A program made the position numbers and the translations under genes. Below, one piece after another: positions 13,352 to 22,529 of a stretch of 28,693 bases of DNA (within the stretch, counting starts at the first letter, position 1; each line of letters starts with the position of its first letter). The stretch comes from a virus. The stretch lies in IMG/VR virus record IMGVR_UViG_3300029309_000252, positions 1 to 28,693 of that record. One strand, written 5' to 3'. The notes below the pieces were generated by a model that was not told the DNA's origin, did no database searches, and saw nothing but the letters and a program-made list of their open reading frames with translations.

Positions 13352-14260
13352 ATGGCAATTAATAGATCGCAATTAGCAAAAGAATTAGAGCCAGGCTTAA
13401 ACGCTTTATTTGGTATGGAGTATGCTAGATACGACAATGAACATGCTGAAATCTTCGAGCAAGAGTCATCTGACAGAGCATTCGAAGAAGAAGTACAAAT
13501 TGTTGGATTTGGTAACGCCCCTGATAAAGCAGAAGGTGCTGGTATCGCTTACGATAACGCAAGTGAAGGTTTTACAGCTCGATACGAGCATGAAACAGTC
13601 GCATTAGCATTCGCACTTACTGAAGAAGCAGTAGAGGATAATTTGTATGACAGACTTGGTTCAAGATATACCAAAGCTTTAGCTAGAAGTATGGCTAACA
13701 CCAAGCAGATCAAAGCTGCAAACATTCTTAATAATGCTTTTTCAGCTAGTTTTGCAGGAGGAGATGGTAAACCATTAGTGGCTACTGATCACCCTCTAAC
13801 AGGCGGTGGTGTAGGTGCTAACAGAGCAGCAGTTTTTGCTGATTTGAACGAAACCTCACTTGAAGATACTCTTATCAGAATTTCAACTCAGGTTGATGAT
13901 AGAGGTTTAGCAATAGCTTTACAGGGAACTAAGTTAATCGTTCCACCACAATTACAATTTGTGGCAGATAGAATTCTTATGTCTCCTGGTCAGTCAGGTA
14001 CAGCTAATAATGACATTAACGCTATGAGAAATATGGGTATGATACCTGAAGGATATGTGGTCAACCACTATCTGACAGACCCAGATGCTTTCTTCGTTAA
14101 GTCAGACTGTCCTGATGGCTTCAAGCATTTTGTTAGATCGCCTATGGCAACATCACTAGAAGGTGATTTTGATACAGGAAATCTAAGATACAAAGCTAGA
14201 GAGAGATATTCATTCGGATTCTCAAACTGGAGATGTGTCGATGCTTCACAAGGTGCATAA
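13352..14260 (+). CDS. Major capsid protein (Mu gpT-like HK97 fold)
   Basis: The ATG at 13352 has AGGAG upstream. The 302 aa product resembles the Mu-like gpT capsid family: N-terminal AKELEPGLNALFGMEYARY, then RYEHETVALAFALTEEAVED and YDRLGSRYTKALARSMANTK, which form the long spine helix. The P-domain and A-domain parts include KPLVATDHPLTGGG, LIVPPQLQFVADRIL and a C-terminal RYSFGFSNWRCVDAS. It builds the icosahedral shell. Position after scaffold and decoration genes, and directly before a strong terminator, supports high expression. There is no protease gene in the module, so maturation may be proteolysis-free. Confidence 0.92.
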   Translation: MAINRSQLAKELEPGLNALFGMEYARYDNEHAEIFEQESSDRAFEEEVQIVGFGNAPDKAEGAGIAYDNASEGFTARYEHETVALAFALTEEAVEDNLYDRLGSRYTKALARSMANTKQIKAANILNNAFSASFAGGDGKPLVATDHPLTGGGVGANRAAVFADLNETSLEDTLIRISTQVDDRGLAIALQGTKLIVPPQLQFVADRILMSPGQSGTANNDINAMRNMGMIPEGYVVNHYLTDPDAFFVKSDCPDGFKHFVRSPMATSLEGDFDTGNLRYKARERYSFGFSNWRCVDASQGA

Positions 14261-14389: not shown

Positions 14390-15244
14390 ATGAGTGTTAA
14401 TTTTAAGAACAACGTTTCTAACGTAGATAAAAGCAAAGGGTCAAATCTTATGGGTTTAATACACCCTGGTCCTACTACAGAATACTTCGACGATTTTTTT
14501 ACATACAATGCAGGTGAGTGGAAAGTAACAGAAACCGCTGCAGGTTCAGGAGCAAATAGCGTAACGAACGTAGATGGTAATGGCGGTGTCATACAAATGA
14601 CTACTGACAATGCTGCAAATGACGGTATTCTAATACAGCTTGGAACAAACTCTGCTATTAATAGTGCTTTCGAGTTTGATTTAGATCACGATTTTTTTTA
14701 CGAAGCTAGAATAGCTCTTGATCATTACGATGCAACTAAAATGCATGCGTTTATTGGGTTATGTGGCAAAGCTGATGATGAAATATTTGATAATTTTAGA
14801 TTCCAAGACAGTATCGGACATCAATTTACAAATGTAGGTGGTTTTTTTCCTTCTGATTTTTATGTTAGATACGGAACACAAGAAACATCACCAGGATCTT
14901 TAGGCAACAGAATGGCTACTTGGAATGGTACTGGTCAAGGCATTTCTGGTACGTCTGTAGTAAATCAAGTGCCTTTTCCTTCAGATGGAGAGTTTTGTAC
15001 TTTAGGTGTATCTTATGACAGTAAATCACAACTAATTTCTTGGACATATCAAGGTGTTCTCATTCAAAGAGCTGCTTTTGATGATAGATTGACAGGACAA
15101 AAAACAACAAATGCTGTTGAAACTTGGGCATATCCAAAAGGAGTGTTAGTACCAACATTAGGAGTAAGAACAAAAGAAGCGTCTGCTAATAGTATGAAGG
15201 TAGATTACTTTAGATGCGGTATGAGAAGGAGGAATCGAGTATGA
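14390..15244 (+). CDS. Jelly-roll (ConA/LamG-like) structural paralog 1, 284 aa
   Basis: ATG 14390 follows AAGGAGG. The product has a short polar N-arm and then a domain opening with EYFDDFFTYNAGEWKVTETA. It continues with GSGANSVTNVDGNGGVIQMT and paired strands (DFFYEARIALDHYDATKMHA), and ends VLVPTLGVRTKEA...MKVDYFRCGMRRR. The DDF-x-x-Y...W opening and VDY near the C-terminus recur in three further genes. Alternating strands with FYEARI- and AFIGL-type cores resemble concanavalin A/laminin-G-type jelly rolls in phage fibre or decoration proteins. It is probably a virion surface protein. The ConA-like call is by pattern only and could be another beta-sandwich fold. Confidence 0.65.
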   Translation: MSVNFKNNVSNVDKSKGSNLMGLIHPGPTTEYFDDFFTYNAGEWKVTETAAGSGANSVTNVDGNGGVIQMTTDNAANDGILIQLGTNSAINSAFEFDLDHDFFYEARIALDHYDATKMHAFIGLCGKADDEIFDNFRFQDSIGHQFTNVGGFFPSDFYVRYGTQETSPGSLGNRMATWNGTGQGISGTSVVNQVPFPSDGEFCTLGVSYDSKSQLISWTYQGVLIQRAAFDDRLTGQKTTNAVETWAYPKGVLVPTLGVRTKEASANSMKVDYFRCGMRRRNRV

Positions 15245-15360
15245 CATATGTAATAAGATGGCGTGGTGGCTCTATGGAGTTTAGTAGTATGAAAGATTTG
15301 TCTGATTGGATGCAGGCTCAAAATCATGATTTTCCAAATATTTGTTTGGAGGTGAAATAA
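15241..15360 (+). CDS. Mini-protein 1 of the paralog block, 39 aa
   Basis: This complete frame overlaps the upstream stop by ATGA, with AAGGAGG nine bases before the ATG, and its stop overlaps the next ATG by TAATG. The sequence begins MTYVIRWRGGSMEFSSMKDL and ends NICLEVK. It reads as strand-helix-strand, like the three other 43-47 aa mini-proteins in this block. Real translation is supported by the ribosome site and the two overlaps. Function unknown. Confidence 0.72.
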   Translation: MTYVIRWRGGSMEFSSMKDLSDWMQAQNHDFPNICLEVK

Positions 15361-15503
15361 TGGCTAAGAAATTAACATTAACAATAGACGGTGTAGAAAC
15401 ACAATATGCAAATACAACAGCAGGTAAAAAGAAATTAGCAGATGCTGCTATGGCCGCTGTAGCTGTTGGTAAAGAAGTAGTTTTAGATGAGGTAGAAGTA
15501 TAA
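15360..15503 (+). CDS. Mini-protein 2 of the paralog block, 47 aa
   Basis: The frame starts at ATG 15360 with GGAGG upstream and its stop overlaps the next ATG (TAATG). The product begins MAKKLTLTIDGVETQYANTT, has an Ala/Lys helix (KKKLADAAMAAVAVGK), and ends in an acidic strand (VVLDEVEV). The layout of strand, turn, strand, helix and final V-L-D-E strand is shared with the mini-proteins at 17352 and 18337, suggesting a duplicated family. Function unknown; it may be a small partner of the jelly-roll proteins. Confidence 0.72.
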   Translation: MAKKLTLTIDGVETQYANTTAGKKKLADAAMAAVAVGKEVVLDEVEV

Positions 15504-16513
15504 TGGCAAGTAATGATGGAAACGTAATATTTGGTAAAACTTCAGCGGTTGGTGAAGTAAATAAAAAAATAACAGGAAATGCTAGTGTAAGTTTCCCAAA
15601 CGGTATTTCTAATTTCGTAAAAAAAGATCATCCTTTATCTAAAATTGGTATCTTAGATAAAACTAAATATATTGTTTGGCACGACGATTTTAGCAATTAT
15701 GTAGCTGGCCATTGGGAAAAAACAGTAGTTGAAGCAGGTTCAGGAAATCACTCAGTTGGTGTCATTAACGGTGCAGGTGGCTTGCTAGAAATAGCTACAG
15801 ATAATGCAAATAACGATAGAGTTTTATTGCAATATAAAGGAAATGCATCTCAAGCAGTTGGTAGTTTCATAATGGATCCAAAAAAGAAAACTTATATTGC
15901 TATGAGGTTTAAGTGCGACAATTGGCAAACATGTGCTTTACATGTTGGTCTGATGAGAAGAAAAACTGATTTCAACGGTTTATTAAGTCAGGGTGGTACT
16001 ATACAAGGACTAGGTATAGATCCATTATTTACAGGCTCAGAACCAGCTATGTTTGCTTTTATGGGCACAGGGTCTGGTTTACCGCTGAATTGTGTATTTG
16101 GTACTACTACTTCAGGCTTTTTACCAACAGCTGGTGACATCACAAATGATGAGTTTATTGAACTAATTTTTGTTTACGATCCCAATAGAAATGTTGGTAG
16201 AAGTATACCAAGTCCTAAAAACAACGATACTTTCTTAGGAAATATAAGTGCTGCTTTACCAGCTGGTCAAATAAATACAAATCAAACTTATCTACATAAG
16301 CCTGTTTATTTCAAAGATTCGGCTAGAGGTTGGACTGGGTGTAGTGCAAGTGTAGGTGGTTCTGATTTACCATTTACCCCAGGAACAGATACAGTAAATC
16401 CTGCCACATGGCCTGATGGTGTAAATTTGATGCCTACTATGATGATTAGAAATAGTACCGCAGCTATAAGCAAGTTGACAGTAGATTATTTAACTATCGT
16501 ACAGGAGAGATAA
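15503..16513 (+). CDS. Jelly-roll (ConA/LamG-like) structural paralog 2, 336 aa
   Basis: ATG 15503 overlaps the previous stop. A longer N-arm (about 60 residues, with SFPNGISNFVKKDHPLS) leads to the shared domain start VWHDDFSNYVAGHWEKTVVE. The segments AGSGNHSVGVINGAGGLLEI and ATDNANNDRVLLQY closely match paralog 1 (AGSGANSVTNVDGNGG and TTDNAANDGILIQL). The end is LMPTMMIRNSTAAISKLTVD followed by YLTIVQER. The SFPNGISN motif also appears in paralog 4. Paralog 1 and 2 are the closest pair. Likely virion surface protein. Confidence 0.65.
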   Translation: MASNDGNVIFGKTSAVGEVNKKITGNASVSFPNGISNFVKKDHPLSKIGILDKTKYIVWHDDFSNYVAGHWEKTVVEAGSGNHSVGVINGAGGLLEIATDNANNDRVLLQYKGNASQAVGSFIMDPKKKTYIAMRFKCDNWQTCALHVGLMRRKTDFNGLLSQGGTIQGLGIDPLFTGSEPAMFAFMGTGSGLPLNCVFGTTTSGFLPTAGDITNDEFIELIFVYDPNRNVGRSIPSPKNNDTFLGNISAALPAGQINTNQTYLHKPVYFKDSARGWTGCSASVGGSDLPFTPGTDTVNPATWPDGVNLMPTMMIRNSTAAISKLTVDYLTIVQER

Positions 16514-17352
16514 TGAGTACAAATTACGAAAAAGGTTTTAATAACTTACCTGATTTAAAAAATCACCCAGCTGGTGATTATATGGGCGGTGATTGGCCAA
16601 CAAAGTTTAATATTATATTTGATGATTTTACATCATTTGACACAGCTTCTAATGGCTGGCGAGCAGGTACACAAGGTGGTTCTACAATAGCTTTAGTGCC
16701 AACATCTCAATTCGATAGCAGAACAGCAAACGGTGTTTTGCGATTAACTACATCTTCAAGTGCTACAGGGAGTGCTGGTAGCTGTTTGTTAGCTTGGGCT
16801 GGAGGAAGTGGTGCTAATAGAGCAACCATACCTTTTACTGGTACAGAACCATTCTTTTTCCAAATACGTTACAAATATCCTGCAAATGCTACGGATTGTC
16901 TTCTGGGTTTTAATGTGGGGACTGAAGCTTTAATGACTGGTTCTCAATATACAGGCTTCCAATTCATGCCTCCTAGTTTTCAAACTCAGTTTAATCCGAA
17001 TAGTGGTTCTCCTGCTGCTAGTTTTCTCCGTATGAAAAATGCTATTGTTGGTGCTTTTGGCTCTTTAGAAGGAGCAGATGAAGCCACAGTTTTAGACCGA
17101 TATAATGTTCTAACATTTTATTATGATCCAAAAAGAAAATTTATGGTTTATCAAATAAATGATAAAAGGTACGATGCTGCAGGAACAGTCAGAACTAATT
17201 TAGATGGACAAGATTTAATGCTTGATACAGCTGGCACAATACCATTTGGTTCTGTTATGATGCCAACAATTGGGTTATCTGGTGCAGTTTCACAAAGTAT
17301 TGATATAGATTATGTAATGGTGGGTTGTCAAAGACCTGAGGAGTTATTCTAA
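16513..17352 (+). CDS. Jelly-roll (ConA/LamG-like) structural paralog 3, 279 aa
   Basis: ATG 16513 overlaps the previous stop (TAATG) with AGGAGA upstream. The N-arm is short, then the shared opening IIFDDFTSFDTASNGWRAGT. A middle with GVLRLTTSSSATGSAG and FFFQIRYKYPANATDCLLGF follows, and the conserved end VMMPTIGLSGAVSQSIDIDY leads into a Cys-Gln-Arg tail. It is more divergent than paralogs 1 and 2 and has longer Ser/Thr/Gly loops. There is no catalytic motif. Probably a virion surface or fibre component, as for the others. Confidence 0.65.
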   Translation: MSTNYEKGFNNLPDLKNHPAGDYMGGDWPTKFNIIFDDFTSFDTASNGWRAGTQGGSTIALVPTSQFDSRTANGVLRLTTSSSATGSAGSCLLAWAGGSGANRATIPFTGTEPFFFQIRYKYPANATDCLLGFNVGTEALMTGSQYTGFQFMPPSFQTQFNPNSGSPAASFLRMKNAIVGAFGSLEGADEATVLDRYNVLTFYYDPKRKFMVYQINDKRYDAAGTVRTNLDGQDLMLDTAGTIPFGSVMMPTIGLSGAVSQSIDIDYVMVGCQRPEELF

Positions 17353-17483
17353 TGGCATATATAATTAAATACGAAAAACCAAGTGGCGAAACTGGCGAAG
17401 TGTCAGTCGCAAATGTTAATAAAATACAAGAAAAACTAGAAGAAATAGGACCTTGTAATGTTGAAATAAAGGAGAAAGAATAA
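17352..17483 (+). CDS. Mini-protein 3 of the paralog block, 43 aa
   Basis: The frame from ATG 17352 is joined to both neighbours by TAATG overlaps, with GAGGAG upstream. The product begins MAYIIKYEKPSGETGEVSVA, has a helix (NVNKIQEKLEEIG) and ends in an acidic strand (NVEIKEKE). Its shape matches the mini-proteins at 15360 and 18337. It contains AAGGAG in its last codons as the ribosome site for paralog 4. Function unknown. Confidence 0.72.
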   Translation: MAYIIKYEKPSGETGEVSVANVNKIQEKLEEIGPCNVEIKEKE

Positions 17484-18337
17484 TGTCTTTAACAAATTTT
17501 CCAAATGGAGTAAGCAACCAAAGTATTGATAACATAATCAAAGGTAATTTTTACGATCCTACTAGAAATCATGTATTCTTTGATGACTTTGATCATTACG
17601 ATACTGATAAATGGTCTGAGTTGAAATCAGCCAACGGTACAGTAGCAATCAGTCCTGATAATCCATCTTGTATTAGGTTAACAAGTCATACAGGTTCTAA
17701 CGATTTTACAGGGCTATTATTAGGTCCAGCAGTAGGCACACCTGAACATAACTTTACTCTAAAAAAAGATAGAGACTTTGTGATGAAGTTTAGATGGAAT
17801 CCTAATGGTATGAATGGAAGTGACCCAGCATATGCAGGCGCTTTTATGTTTACTGACGATGTGCAAGCAGGCCCACCAATATTCTTTTCACCAACACCCC
17901 CAACAGGGTCAATAGGTGTTATGTTTAAAGGTGATCCAGCAGGCGGTACAGTATGTTATCAATATGTTAATAACGGTTCTAATGCTTATGCAGGCCTGCT
18001 TAATTCAACAGACAATCCTGAGTTAAACGTCGCAAGTAGAGCAGGCTTTCCAAACACATTCTTTACTGCAACTATTTACTACGATTCAGTCAAAGGTAGA
18101 ATTAAATGGATACTAGAAGATACATTAGTATCAGAGGTGGATATAACAGTAACAAATAGAAATTTAAAAAATAGTGCTTCAACATCTTTAACAGCAGCGG
18201 ACATACCGTTTACTGATTCAGGTGCTCAGGTATTACCGCATATTTATGTTGCTAATTTCTTAAACTCAGGAGCACAAAGTGCTGACTTTGATTATATATT
18301 TGTATCTCAACCAAGAGATCCAGGAGGTTTCAAGTAA
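17483..18337 (+). CDS. Jelly-roll (ConA/LamG-like) structural paralog 4, 284 aa
   Basis: ATG 17483 overlaps the previous stop and has AAGGAG upstream. The N-arm contains FPNGVSN, as in paralog 2. The domain opens with VFFDDFDHYDTDKWSELKSA and continues with a strand-rich core (FVMKFRWNPNGM, GAFMFTDDV). It has a long Ser/Thr/Ala stretch near 235-255 and ends with VLPHIYVANFLNSGAQSADF followed by DYIFVSQPRDPGG. The DDF..Y and DY ends define it as the fourth family member. Likely virion surface protein. Confidence 0.65.
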   Translation: MSLTNFPNGVSNQSIDNIIKGNFYDPTRNHVFFDDFDHYDTDKWSELKSANGTVAISPDNPSCIRLTSHTGSNDFTGLLLGPAVGTPEHNFTLKKDRDFVMKFRWNPNGMNGSDPAYAGAFMFTDDVQAGPPIFFSPTPPTGSIGVMFKGDPAGGTVCYQYVNNGSNAYAGLLNSTDNPELNVASRAGFPNTFFTATIYYDSVKGRIKWILEDTLVSEVDITVTNRNLKNSASTSLTAADIPFTDSGAQVLPHIYVANFLNSGAQSADFDYIFVSQPRDPGGFK

Positions 18338-18768: not shown

Positions 18769-19050
18769 ATGGCAGTAAGCATGCGCAAAGAGCATAAAAG
18801 CCCCTCTGGGGGTTTAAGTGCTAAAGGTAGAAAATACTACAACAGAAAAACTGGCTCTAATTTAAAAGCTCCTGTTACTTCAAAAAACCCTAAAGGCAAA
18901 GCAAAAGCGAGAAAAAAATCATTTTGTGCTAGAATGAGTGGTGTAAAAGGTCCTATGAAAGACAAAAAAGGTAGGCCAACAAGAAAGGCTTTAGCTTTAA
19001 GAAAATGGCGTTGTGGGACAACTAAAAAAAGAAAAACTAGAGGACGATAA
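18769..19050 (+). CDS. Lys/Arg/Gly-rich small basic protein (DUF6321-like), 93 aa
   Basis: The product contains KSPSGGLSAKGRKYYNRKTG, then SNLKAPVTSKNPKGKAKARK, FCARMSGVKGPMKDKKGRPT and LALRKWRCG. This string of motifs matches a widespread phage and algal-virus small basic protein family I recall as DUF6321, whose function is unknown. It is highly positively charged with a pair of Cys that could bind metal. The start is a plain ATG two bases after the previous stop. Basic virion proteins may help neutralise packaged DNA (inference). It opens the basic-protein cluster that surrounds the SET-domain gene. Confidence 0.82.
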   Translation: MAVSMRKEHKSPSGGLSAKGRKYYNRKTGSNLKAPVTSKNPKGKAKARKKSFCARMSGVKGPMKDKKGRPTRKALALRKWRCGTTKKRKTRGR

Positions 19051-19051
19051 T

Positions 19052-19231
19052 ATGAGTTTTTGGGAAAAAGTAGGAAATTTTTTTGGCTTGGTAAAAGTCA
19101 GAGCTCGTGATGAAAATGGTCGATACGTTGCAGATGATAAATCGACAGCAAGGAATGAAGCATATACAATGGTGCATAAAGATTTGATAAAAAAACCAAA
19201 ACGTAAATATAAAAAAAGGAAGGCTAAATAA
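19052..19231 (+). CDS. Small basic-tailed protein, 59 aa
   Basis: ATG 19052 was chosen because AGAGGA lies at the right distance; an upstream in-frame ATG at 19013 falls inside the previous gene. The product has an aromatic N-terminal helix (MSFWEKVGNFFGLVKVRARD), an acidic-polar centre (ENGRYVADDKSTARNEAYTM), and a Lys-rich tail (KKPKRKYKKRKAK). The amphipathic N-terminus and basic C-terminus suggest membrane or nucleic-acid contact, but no family is recognised. Its stop overlaps the next start (TAATG). Confidence 0.72.
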   Translation: MSFWEKVGNFFGLVKVRARDENGRYVADDKSTARNEAYTMVHKDLIKKPKRKYKKRKAK

Positions 19232-19503
19232 TGGCTATAAGTAGTGAAAAGAAAGTACAGAGAATAGAGGTTTATCCTTTATCTGATAAAACAGCAGCTG
19301 ATACAGCTAATGCAAAACATCCAACTGTTATGGTGTGTTATGAAAATGTCTTAACTGGGACTGGTACAGATGCTCATCTAAACGGTACAGTTGCATCAGA
19401 GGTAAAACATTTAAGCAAATTTGTAGAAGATGGTGGCGCTGCAACTGATTACTCTAAAGAAGATGCTTTGGTAAAAACAGTTTGCGCAGCTATTTGGGCA
19501 TAA
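19231..19503 (+). CDS. Conserved-type small phage protein, 90 aa
   Basis: ATG 19231 overlaps the previous stop with AAGGA upstream. The product (MAISSEKKVQRIEVYPLSDK, TANAKHPTVMVCYENVLTG) ends with TVCAAIWA. The VQRIEVYP and KHPTVMVCYE motifs recur in small proteins of marine podoviruses near tail or lysin genes. I know of no demonstrated function. It directly abuts the GTG start of the nuclease gene with no space between. Confidence 0.74.
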   Translation: MAISSEKKVQRIEVYPLSDKTAADTANAKHPTVMVCYENVLTGTGTDAHLNGTVASEVKHLSKFVEDGGAATDYSKEDALVKTVCAAIWA

Positions 19504-19926
19504 GTGTACGAATACAAATGCCAAGTAACTAGAGTAGTAGACGGGGATACAGTAGATTGTGTCCTCGATCTAGGCTTTAGTATCCTTCATAAATGTCGTG
19601 TACGTCTATACGGTATTGACACTCCTGAATCCAGAACTCGTGACTTAGATGAAAAAGCAAGAGGTAAACTTGCATCTAAATTTCTAAAAGAAGCTATAGA
19701 TAACGGTAATAAAATAGTATTAAAAAGCCAACTTAAAGACTCAAAAGGAAAGTATGGCAGAGTGCTTGGTTCAATTGTGGTGGATGGTTTAGACATCAAC
19801 AAAGCTATGGTAGCTAACAATCTAGCGGTCAAATACTACGGCCAAAGTAAAGATGATGTTGAAGCAGAACATATGGTCAATAGAGATATCTTGATTGCAG
19901 AGGGTGCGTATGTACCCGATCTATAA
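19504..19926 (+). CDS. Staphylococcal-nuclease-like endonuclease
   Basis: This 140 aa protein has the thermonuclease/SNase signature. The motif VVDGDTVDCVLDLGF (11-25) gives the metal-binding acidic residues, RLYGIDTPE (34-42) gives the catalytic Arg and Glu, and KYGRVLGSI (83-91) supplies the second catalytic Arg. The tail ends IAEGAYVPDL. It cleaves DNA or RNA with calcium. The start is GTG with no Shine-Dalgarno site, directly after the previous stop, so it is probably translated by coupling. There is no signal peptide, so it should act inside the host or in the virion. Candidate roles are host DNA breakdown or genome processing. Confidence 0.9.
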   Translation: MYEYKCQVTRVVDGDTVDCVLDLGFSILHKCRVRLYGIDTPESRTRDLDEKARGKLASKFLKEAIDNGNKIVLKSQLKDSKGKYGRVLGSIVVDGLDINKAMVANNLAVKYYGQSKDDVEAEHMVNRDILIAEGAYVPDL

Positions 19927-20245
19927 TAAGTTTTATTACAAACCTCTTCCTGATTCTTTAGAAGTAAAAGAAAGCCCAATTGAAGGTTTAGGTCTTTTCG
20001 CTAAAACCAATATCAAAAAACATTTCGATTGTGGCATGTCACATATTAAGGTGCCTATTATTTGTGGTTTTATCAGAACTTCAATAGGTGGTTTTTTAAA
20101 TCATTCTGAAAAACCAAATTGTGTTCTTTCTTTAGAGTTGGATTGGGATGATTATAAGGTATATAATGTTTTTACTATAAGAAAAATTGAAGCTGGTGAA
20201 GAACTAACTTTAGATTATCATTCAGATGGTTTGAATTATGGCTAA
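19910..20245 (+). CDS. Minimal SET-domain lysine methyltransferase
   Basis: This 111 aa protein starts at ATG 19910, with GAGGG upstream inside the nuclease gene; an earlier TTG at 19895 was rejected. SET motifs appear in order: ESPIEGLGLFA (21-31, SAM-binding), FLNHSEKPNC (62-71, the NHSxxPN motif) and GEELTLDY (96-103, with the catalytic Tyr). The size matches minimal viral SET proteins such as chlorella virus vSET (about 119 aa), which methylate histone lysines. No post-SET Cys cluster is seen. It sits among Lys-rich small proteins, which are possible substrates, but none has been tested. A phage SET enzyme is unusual; methyl transfer to lysine is expected from the family and not shown here. 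Confidence 0.85.
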   Translation: MYPIYNKFYYKPLPDSLEVKESPIEGLGLFAKTNIKKHFDCGMSHIKVPIICGFIRTSIGGFLNHSEKPNCVLSLELDWDDYKVYNVFTIRKIEAGEELTLDYHSDGLNYG

Positions 20246-20504
20246 AAAGAAAGCAAAAAAAGATGCTTGTTACCACAAAGTAAAAGCTAGATATACAAGA
20301 AACGGAGGTACTTGGCCATCAGCTTATGGTTCAGGTGCCCTTGTCAAATGCAGAAAAGTAGGAGCTAAGAACTGGGGCAATAAATCTAAAAAAGCCACAG
20401 GTGGCATAGTCAAGATGAAAAACGGTGGTTGTGTGCAATTTATAAAAAGAAGAGGCACAGGTGCTATGCTACCTTTCAAAAATAACAAAACAAAAATATC
20501 CTAA
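20238..20504 (+). CDS. Small basic Gly/Lys/Cys protein, 88 aa
   Basis: ATG 20238 overlaps the SET gene by eight bases. The product begins MAKKKAKKDACYHKVKARYT, then GGTWPSAYGSGALVKCRKVG and AKNWGNKSKK. The YxKVKxRY...WPSAYxSGALVKCRKVGAxNWG block is a family widespread in phages and large algal viruses, function unknown. The C-terminal part (TGGIVKMKNGGCVQFIKRRG) is another recurring short motif. Charged Lys/Gly surfaces and Cys pairs suggest nucleic-acid or metal binding. It is a member of the cluster of basic proteins around the SET enzyme. Confidence 0.82.
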   Translation: MAKKKAKKDACYHKVKARYTRNGGTWPSAYGSGALVKCRKVGAKNWGNKSKKATGGIVKMKNGGCVQFIKRRGTGAMLPFKNNKTKIS

Positions 20505-20806
20505 TGAGCTTAAAAGACTGGTTTTCTAAAAATGACGGTAAAGGCTGGATAGATTGTAAAACTGGCAAACCCTGTGGACGTAAATCTAGAACTAAAAGCA
20601 AAAGACCGTATCCTGCATGTAGGCCTACTAAAGCACAATGTAATGAGGCTGCAAAGAAAAAAACAAGCAAAAAAAGAATTAGTTGGCAAAAGAAAAAGAA
20701 TGGTGGCGAAATGATTCTTGCAAAAAAAAATAGCAGAATTGCTAAAGGTTGTGGTAAAGTAATGAGTGATAGAAGGAAGAGGACTAAACAAACTTATTAT
20801 GTATAA
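20504..20806 (+). CDS. Small basic protein (DUF5872-like), 100 aa
   Basis: ATG 20504 overlaps the previous stop (TAATG). The product (MSLKDWFSKNDGKGWIDCKT, GKPCGRKSRTKSKRPYPACR, PTKAQCNEAAKKKTSKKRIS) carries the DWF..N.GKGW.DC.TGKPCGRK...PYPACRPT.AQC signature that I recall as DUF5872, found in phages and large eukaryotic viruses. Four Cys may bind zinc. Function unknown. The tail is basic and Tyr-ended (KRTKQTYYV). It belongs to the basic cluster flanking the SET gene. Confidence 0.82.
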   Translation: MSLKDWFSKNDGKGWIDCKTGKPCGRKSRTKSKRPYPACRPTKAQCNEAAKKKTSKKRISWQKKKNGGEMILAKKNSRIAKGCGKVMSDRRKRTKQTYYV

Positions 20807-21056
20807 AAAAACAAAAGGATATTCAGGCGGAGGCAGAGCAAAAAAAGCTAAAGGATACTCAGGCGGCGGAGGTGCTAGAAAATCTAAAGGCTACGCTATG
20901 GGTGGTAAAGCCACAAAAGGCTACGCTATGGGTGGTAAAGCCACAAAAGGTTATGCTAATGGCGGAGCTGCTAAATCTAAAAAAACTAAGGGTTTTGCTG
21001 TAGCTGGTGCTTCAAATATAAGAAGAGCTAGACAAGGCGCTGAAGTAAATAGTTAA
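20799..21056 (+). CDS. KGY-GG tandem-repeat basic protein, 85 aa
   Basis: The start ATG 20799 overlaps the previous gene by eight bases; only a distant AGGAAGAGG lies upstream. The product is built of repeats with the core K-G-Y-(S/A)-x-G-G: TKGYSGGGRAKKAKGYSGGG, GARKSKGYAMGGKATKGYAM, GGKATKGYANGG, then KTKGFAVAGASNIRRARQGA. It is almost pure Lys/Arg/Gly/Ala/Tyr/Ser and must be disordered. It contains one ARKS tetrapeptide, the motif around methylated H3 lysines. It could be a DNA-neutralising virion protein or a substrate of the neighbouring SET enzyme; both are inferences. Confidence 0.75.
   Translation: MYKKTKGYSGGGRAKKAKGYSGGGGARKSKGYAMGGKATKGYAMGGKATKGYANGGAAKSKKTKGFAVAGASNIRRARQGAEVNS
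20886..20945 (+). repeat. Perfect 30-bp tandem duplication inside the KGY-repeat gene
   Basis: The 30 bases at 20886-20915 (coding KGYAMGGKAT) are repeated exactly at 20916-20945. A degenerate third unit follows from 20946 (KGYANGGAAK), and earlier units differ mainly at third codon positions. The identity of two units shows a recent duplication, so repeat number probably varies between related phages. Confidence 0.88.
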
Positions 21057-21730
21057 TGCCTCATCTTATAAGTAACATACCCCATTTCAAAGTTTGGGTG
21101 AGAAGAGACTTCACATCTGGTCACGAAAATTATCAAGGCGAATTTATACATGCCTATGTCATAGCAGTAAACACCATTCCAGACAGATCTCTAAGTTTTC
21201 AAGTTGTATTTACAGGATGCGAGGTAGATAGAGAGGACTGGGAAGAGGGCAACATACATGGTGGTGCTATGTGGGCTAGAATGCCTATACAGGGTCTAGT
21301 CGCAGATATACCTATGGAAGAGTGGCCTGAACCTATGGAAGATCATTTGGCCCAACCTTGGGATTGTGAATCAAGAGATCATTCTGTAGTTGTTATGGAT
21401 AGAGTAAGTTCATCACCCTGGATAGCCAAGATAGATGGTGATTTTTATCAAGCAAAATACTTATTCACTGTTGACTATACAAATAATGATATTGCAGATG
21501 ACCCTGCACAACATAAACAATCTCATGTATTATATATAACAGAAGATTGTAAATGGAAAGGTAATTTAGTCGCTTTACCTAACAATAGAGTAAGGGCTAC
21601 AAGTCCAGCTCTTTGGAGAACAGGAGAAGGTGCGCCAGACTTTAAACCGTCACAATGGGTGCATTCTGCTGAAGGACACGAAAGTTATTTAGATCCAGCA
21701 ATCACATTTAATAATTTATATGAGGATTGA
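21056..21730 (+). CDS. Conserved-type structural protein, 224 aa
   Basis: ATG 21056 overlaps the previous stop. The product is aromatic and acidic with many Trp: MPHLISNIPHFKVWVRRDFT, GEFIHAYVIAVNTIPDRSLS, FTGCEVDREDWEEGNIHGGA, MWARMPIQGLVADIP, and EDHLAQPWDCESRDHSVVV. The whole-length pattern is a well-known conserved unknown of cyanophages and other marine phages. The fold appears beta-rich. It comes just before the head-tail connector genes, so a head or neck role is possible. No catalytic site can be assigned. Confidence 0.8.
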   Translation: MPHLISNIPHFKVWVRRDFTSGHENYQGEFIHAYVIAVNTIPDRSLSFQVVFTGCEVDREDWEEGNIHGGAMWARMPIQGLVADIPMEEWPEPMEDHLAQPWDCESRDHSVVVMDRVSSSPWIAKIDGDFYQAKYLFTVDYTNNDIADDPAQHKQSHVLYITEDCKWKGNLVALPNNRVRATSPALWRTGEGAPDFKPSQWVHSAEGHESYLDPAITFNNLYED

Positions 21731-21732
21731 AT

Positions 21733-21855
21733 ATGGCCGAGCTGACAAGAGAAACAAAAAAGAAGCTTATTAAAGAATTGAAAAATGCTTCTAGATTGCA
21801 TGCAAGACAAGCAAGACAACTAGAAAGATCTTTAAAAACTACTAAGAAAAAATAA
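21733..21855 (+). CDS. Basic helical mini-protein, 40 aa
   Basis: A complete short frame from ATG 21733, two bases after the previous stop, with GAGGA upstream; its TAA overlaps the next ATG (TAATG). The product begins MAELTRETKKKLIKELKNAS and continues RLHARQARQLERSLKTTKKK, a highly basic amphipathic helix. No family is recognised. Overlap with the next gene and the ribosome site support it. Confidence 0.68.
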   Translation: MAELTRETKKKLIKELKNASRLHARQARQLERSLKTTKKK

Positions 21856-22529
21856 TGGCAGTTTCAGGTAGCAAAGACTTTGAATTAAATATTACAGAGT
21901 TTATAGAAGAGGCATACGAAAGATGTGGATTAGAACTTAGAACTGGATACGATCTCAAAACAGCTATCAGGTCTGCTAATCTTATGTTAGCTGAATGGGC
22001 TAATAGAGGTTTGAATCAATGGACCATATCAACTGGTACACAAACAGTTACTGAAGGCACTAATAACTACCAACTAGGCACTAGCACAATAGATATCTTA
22101 GATGTAACAATTAGAAGAACCGTAGGTACTGACACAACAGATATACGTATGGATAGATTATCTAGATCAGAATTCTTCTCAATACCTAATAAAGACTCAA
22201 AAGCAAAACCTTCACAATTTTTTTTAGATAAACAAGTTAACCCAGTTTTATTTTTGTATCCAACCCCTGAAAATTCTACCGATATAATTAGATTTACAAA
22301 ATTAGAGAGAATAGATGATGTTGATTCAGCAACAAACACTATGCAGATGCCCTTCAGACTCTTTCCTTGCTTTGTAGCAGGGCTTGCCTACTACTTATCA
22401 CAAAAAAGAGCTCCTGAGCGAACTGGGGACCTCAAAGCGATATATGAAGAAGAATTTAGAAGAGCTGCAGATCAAGATGAGGATAGAGCATCATTTAGAG
22501 TAAGGCCCTATCCTGGAGTGAGAAGATGA
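21855..22529 (+). CDS. Head-tail connector, P22 gp4-like
   Basis: ATG 21855 overlaps the previous stop. The 224 aa product has an all-helical N-terminal region (ITEFIEEAYERCGLELRTGY, then TAIRSANLMLAEWANRGLNQ) and a beta-rich centre (LDVTIRRTV, FLYPTPENSTDIIRF). A C-terminal helix with an extended basic tail follows (KAIYEEEFRRAADQDEDRAS). The YERCGxE...A.R.ANxMLAEWANRGLN pattern is the hallmark of the gp4 tail-accessory family. It binds the portal after packaging and provides the docking ring for the tail hub. Confidence comes from the characteristic N-terminal pattern and position. Confidence 0.85.
   Translation: MAVSGSKDFELNITEFIEEAYERCGLELRTGYDLKTAIRSANLMLAEWANRGLNQWTISTGTQTVTEGTNNYQLGTSTIDILDVTIRRTVGTDTTDIRMDRLSRSEFFSIPNKDSKAKPSQFFLDKQVNPVLFLYPTPENSTDIIRFTKLERIDDVDSATNTMQMPFRLFPCFVAGLAYYLSQKRAPERTGDLKAIYEEEFRRAADQDEDRASFRVRPYPGVRR

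Follow-up and report, generated by a model that had tools for sequence, protein, structure and literature searches.

Minimal SET-domain protein in a gene-swapping phage interval is probably an accessory lysine methyltransferase and shows no excess of lysine-rich neighbors over controls

What is known of SET-domain enzymes comes mainly from eukaryotic histone methyltransferases and from the effectors of a small number of pathogens. The domain is recognized by a GxG motif for S-adenosylmethionine (SAM), an NH..N motif and a catalytic Tyr, and many but not all members also carry a Cys-rich post-SET. A minimal virus-encoded example is vSET (A612L) of the chlorella virus PBCV-1, an active lysine methyltransferase without a post-SET that methylates histone H3 of its host. 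Among prokaryotes, the SET enzyme Go1-SET of the archaeon Methanosarcina mazei reportedly methylates MC1-alpha, a basic protein associated with DNA (PMC3980110). Phage SET domains are already annotated publicly, both as PHROG 28741, an entry without a function, and as UniProt entries named 'SET domain containing protein [uncultured Caudovirales phage]'. In the open-access papers searched we found no study of the phage SET family, and an incidental mention for phage Ps15 only. Here we describe a member of what proved to be a large and apparently unstudied phage and bacterial SET family.

The gene lies in a 28,693-nucleotide stretch of DNA from a marine phage, referred to as the window, whose morphogenesis genes resemble those of HTVC023P-type pelagiphages (SAR11 podoviruses). 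The capsid protein was 63-66% identical in HTVC023P and HTVC027P (65.5% over 98% in the test of this assignment), and HTVC023P has the same gene order of terminase, GroES, capsid, and DUF6321-like and other basic genes. They differ in SET, for which HTVC023P and HTVC027P gave no match in a phage-wide search; the comparison was made from a 28.7-kb fragment, in which no PolA, helicase or primase gene was identified. The main text of the HTVC023P-type genome paper contains no mention of SET, methyltransferase or lysine. A near-identity DNA search of phage records gave no match to the window. The features used in this study are as follows.

13352..14260, plus strand: major capsid protein, left border of the variable interval (Pfam Phage_capsid_4, 1.8e-13)
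18769..19050, plus strand: B1, basic DUF6321 protein, net charge +0.33 per residue (Pfam DUF6321, 6.7e-29)
19052..19231, plus strand: B2, basic 59-aa protein, +0.19 per residue (from charge; related genes in some SET-bearing loci)
19231..19503, plus strand: neutral 90-aa protein between B2 and the nuclease (no Pfam family above cut-off)
19504..19926, plus strand: staphylococcal-nuclease-like protein (SNase) with a GTG start (Pfam SNase, 4.3e-14; PHROG 452 endonuclease, 2.9e-37)
19910..20245, plus strand: SET-domain protein, 111 aa, candidate protein-lysine N-methyltransferase (Pfam SET, PHROG 28741, AlphaFold, Foldseek, motifs, dN/dS)
20238..20504, plus strand: B3, basic 88-aa protein with a weak DUF5872-like core, +0.26 per residue (Pfam DUF5872, 0.007, below cut-off; PHROG 727, 1.6e-18)
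20504..20806, plus strand: B4, basic 100-aa protein with several Cys, +0.26 per residue (no Pfam or PHROG family; homologs in SET-bearing and SET-less relatives)
20799..21056, plus strand: B5, Gly/Lys repeat protein, 85 aa, +0.24 per residue, with a single ARKS (charge and motif search)
21056..21730, plus strand: conserved 224-aa acidic protein (PHROG 3704, 3.5e-26)
21855..22529, plus strand: tail-side structural gene, working label gp4, right border of the variable interval (PHROG 12985, 5.6e-25, without a function; border conserved in relatives)

An earlier note on this DNA had described a SET protein overlapping a nuclease gene, followed at once by three very basic small proteins and preceded by two more. 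The start of SET does lie inside the nuclease ORF, with an overlap of 17 nt, and B3 to B5 follow directly. The two upstream genes, B1 and B2, are basic as described, but they are not immediate neighbors, as the neutral 90-aa gene and the neutral nuclease intervene before SET.

The ORF runs from an ATG at 19910 to a stop at 20245 and contains the three motifs previously read from it, GLGLFA (residues 26-31), NHSEKPNC (64-71) and GEELTLDY (96-103). Pfam assigned the SET family at E=4.3e-11 and 43.6 bits (cut-off 22.4), PHROG 28741 covered nearly the whole protein (1.9e-24), and matches among PDB sequences included MLL1 (2e-8) and vSET (3e-5). The strength of the Pfam and PDB matches places the assignment far beyond chance. 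Structure prediction had been proposed earlier as a check, and the AlphaFold model, built with 36 aligned relatives as input, bore the assignment out, with a pLDDT of 83.9 and the SET (beta-clip) fold. Foldseek analysis of the model revealed SET domains all through the top matches (MLL1, 7e-7; vSET, 2e-6), and its matches to predicted viral structures included SET proteins annotated in phages and giant viruses.

Motif positions were assigned via alignment to MLL1, and residues invariant in 36/36 phage SET sequences included G26, G28, H45, R56, T57, N64, H65, N70, C71, E97, E98 and Y103. These comprise the SAM-binding GxG motif (G26 and G28), the NHSxxPN pseudoknot motif (N64, H65 and N70) and the catalytic Tyr closing the E-E-L-T-x-x-Y motif (Y103, aligned with the MLL1 motif), so that retention of the catalytic Tyr and SAM motif in homologs, also raised in the earlier note, was confirmed. 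Three related SET proteins (L024, L027 and L028) have NHN in place of NHS, with Asn at position 66 and the other motifs kept. No Cys follows residue 103, and the protein has no Cys-rich post-SET; since vSET also lacks this element, its absence is not disqualifying. The gene is under purifying selection, with a dN/dS of about 0.05 for the closest copies, rising to at most 0.16 among the pairs tested. The ORF encodes a genuine, intact-looking SET-domain protein, an assignment that is well supported. Together, the fold, invariant motifs and low dN/dS indicate that the gene is real and maintained, with the sequence features that would be expected of an active enzyme.

The closest known relatives are PHROG 28741, which is the direct family match, and the uncultured Caudovirales phage SET entries in UniProt, with annotated phage SET proteins matched at the level of fold. 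vSET is likewise minimal and of similar length (TM 0.66/0.69 in the Foldseek comparison); the two proteins share 26% identity, and the virus encoding vSET infects algae, whereas the host of the phage is a prokaryote. Relatives of the window phage infect bacteria, which are not known to have histone H3. The MLL1 (KMT2A) SET domain gave the best match in both sequence and fold, and its NHS..PNC and GEELT.DY motifs align with those of the phage protein, which differs in having neither the larger domain context nor the post-SET Cys. This nearness probably reflects database content, not descent. Go1-SET is comparable in being a prokaryotic SET enzyme.

Analysis of the distribution of the family revealed 149 virus loci in a protein search with SET, and at least 598 confirmed virus stretches with a family member in a profile-based scan. 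Five distinct named phages had a match (P-SSM7, P-RSM6, Kolga, AG-345-P14 and PH1), and the carriers include T4-like cyanophages and a Pelagibacter siphovirus-type phage. Two SET-bearing isolates, the Pelagibacter phage Kolga and the Prochlorococcus phage P-SSM7, have no basic cluster beside SET. In a bacterial and archaeal genome collection 31 SET loci were identified; judged by eye from neighboring translations, several look chromosomal and others resemble phage contigs in bins. Chromosomal-looking copies were found in SAR92-like contigs (e.g. L185, 133 kb), a SAR86 single-cell contig (L189, 214 kb) and Saccharibacteria (L173 and L181), and these copies have no lysine-rich neighbor genes. 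The SET proteins of the SAR92-like gammaproteobacteria (L185, L176, L177, L179, L183, L186 and L187) are closely related; the neighbors in L185 resemble genes for fatty-acid synthesis, a peroxiredoxin and a single-strand-binding protein, which is a chromosomal setting. In the wider family (L434-L512) the terminase is a recurring neighbor, with eight ORFs related to the window's large subunit within 1.5 kb of SET. The Pseudoalteromonas phage PH1 carries a more distant, fused form, in which a SET-like domain forms the C-terminus of a 280-aa protein (L084, 7461-8303). The gene is flanked by a hypothetical gene and a 'DNA ejection' gene, with an internal virion protein encoded nearby, and its product is a different, possibly virion-associated SET.

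We consider it probable that the window encodes an accessory SET protein-lysine methyltransferase in a gene-swapping slot, with a target common to many infected cells and not specifically its neighbors. The protein would act as a minimal single-domain enzyme that binds SAM via the GxG and NH..N motifs, with Tyr103 promoting methyl transfer onto a lysine side chain. The gene appears to be an accessory (moron-like) one, of a family found across many marine phages and in some bacterial chromosomes, that would have landed in a capsid-to-tail-side interval already holding turnover-prone lysine-rich proteins. Either a protein of the host or a widespread one of phages is the probable substrate. A shared target is preferred because the family is spread over unrelated phages and bacterial chromosomes; this spread is the single line of evidence for it, and no positive sign of any particular host target was seen. 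A family this large and this strongly conserved, carried by marine phages and free-living bacteria, is expected to have bacterial or phage proteins as targets, none of which is named in the papers found. With its small size and intact appearance, the gene lends itself to a direct search for its target.

A narrower form of this explanation, in which SET modifies a host protein (ribosomal, translation or defense) and thereby reprograms the infected cell, is a serious but tentative possibility. The occurrence of the same family in unrelated phages (T4-like cyanophages, Pelagibacter siphovirus-type) and in bacterial chromosomes fits a widely conserved target; however, widespread proteins are shared by phage genomes too, and direct evidence points to no host protein.

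The SET fold could also have been kept for a non-enzymatic role (SAM, peptide or partner binding), or the protein could modify something besides protein lysine. Its short length, reduced middle segment and missing post-SET are consistent with this, as are some relatives (L035 and L046) that end within 1-2 residues of the catalytic Tyr and the invariant H45, R56 and T57, which have no assigned role. We regard it as unlikely, as the SAM and catalytic motifs are invariant in the 36 sequences and vSET, an active lysine methyltransferase of similar size (a 119-residue chain), is among the top fold matches.

The earlier note had placed SET and the adjacent basic genes in one phage lysine-methylation system, with lysine-rich DNA-binding or virion proteins of the phage itself as substrates, modified in the manner of histone tails. 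The enzyme half of this proposal stands, in that motifs and fold identify a SET methyltransferase, while comparison with relatives gives no support for the link to neighboring substrates. To obtain SET-independent relatives, three genes were used to gather loci: the capsid gene of the window, that of a more distantly related SET-bearing phage, and the tail-side gene of a third phage. Among 111 complete capsid-to-gp4 intervals, two or more basic genes were present in 88 and SET in 5; 83 intervals had at least two basic genes and no SET, 5 had both, and 23 had fewer than two basic genes and no SET (Fisher P = 0.58). Two of the five SET-bearing intervals (L276 and L277) are contigs already found via SET. 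Because the rows of these sets are related to one another and do not represent independent events, the tests are descriptive. SET thus occurs at a frequency of about 5%, against a basic cluster that is the norm. A similar picture was obtained for loci picked by the 224-aa neighbor (basic genes in 51/54, SET in 3/54) and in phage records, of which 312 had DUF6321 homologs, 317 the B3 core and 8 SET. In the cultured Pelagibacter phage HTVC023P, too, this slot is occupied by the basic cluster.

The wider family gave the same answer from the side of the enzyme. At least two basic ORFs lay within 1.5 kb in 5/79 SET loci compared with 3/53 random genes from the same contigs (Fisher P = 1.0), and one copy 78% identical to that of the window (L012) sits in a different gene setting with no basic genes. 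In this survey of related phages for co-occurrence, as proposed in the earlier note, the linkage of enzyme and candidate substrates was not above background in either comparison. On a plain reading, SET entered phages whose genomes already had the basic cluster. The closeness of the genes misled, as the lysine-rich cluster is common in marine phages independently of SET.

Adjacency in the window, and the several basic genes that flanked SET in every capsid-to-gp4 interval of relatives that carries it (14/14 SET-selected and 5/5 others, 19 in all), do speak for a single system. They leave room for a SET-basic link within this clade, which the numbers do not require. Go1-SET acting on MC1-alpha (PMC3980110) is a further precedent, by analogy with which a basic DNA-binding substrate could be envisaged. 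In the SET tree, which is built from 113 columns and weakly resolved, basic neighbors fall in two subclades of one well-supported group and are rare elsewhere, bar two scattered distant members. Against a single system stand the many basic clusters without SET, including that of HTVC023P, the wider SET family, mostly without basic neighbors, and the flanking basic genes themselves, which differ from relative to relative. We therefore regard it as doubtful, and a dedicated enzyme-substrate operon was rejected as the leading reading on the basis of the controls chosen via capsid, gp4 and 224-aa neighbor.

The ARKS tetrapeptide in B5, earlier likened to a methylated histone H3 site, occurs once in the window and in that protein only. 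Shuffling produced it by chance in 1.2% of cases for B5 and 4.9% for any of the five basic proteins. ARKS was found in 0/91 distinct basic proteins from the 19 other SET-bearing intervals, compared with 6/304 basic proteins of SET-less intervals, and relatives with and without SET keep the Gly/Lys repeat of B5 but not ARKS. The idea of a conserved histone-mimic site was rejected on the basis of its absence from the basic proteins of the other SET-bearing intervals, which also argues against the single-system proposal. That SET, in some phage lineages, methylates surrounding lysine-rich and possibly DNA-associated proteins in an independent resemblance to histone-tail methylation is likewise doubtful.

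Co-occurrence of SET and DUF6321 anywhere in the genome (6/20 records, including P-SSM7 and a 120-kb contig) was set aside as uninformative because DUF6321 is common in phages; DUF6321 was not found in complete Kolga or in a 298-kb contig. Kolga does encode a basic protein far from SET (44414-44653), which looks by eye like one in L127. We found no mention of DUF6321 in the open-access papers searched, of which one mentions DUF5872. The small lysine-rich genes (DUF6321, DUF5872-like, Cys-containing and Gly/Lys repeats; window 18769-21056, relatives L088-L163 and L196-L352) form a cluster that turns over fast, is placed between the capsid and tail-side genes of most relatives, and is made up of families common in marine phages.

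The 224-aa protein occurs alongside the basic cluster whether or not SET is present, and was 70-88% identical in 20 of 21 aligned sequences and 28% in one. Its labels conflict ('ferredoxin' for the PHROGs family, PurM on HTVC023P gp44, which occupies the same place and looks related by eye), and its structure model has low confidence (pLDDT 53). At 14390-18337 of the window no Pfam family was matched where tested; the region holds four consecutive genes of 279-336 aa, alike by eye in their FFDDF-type start and DYxxx end, which are possibly duplicated decoration or adhesion proteins.
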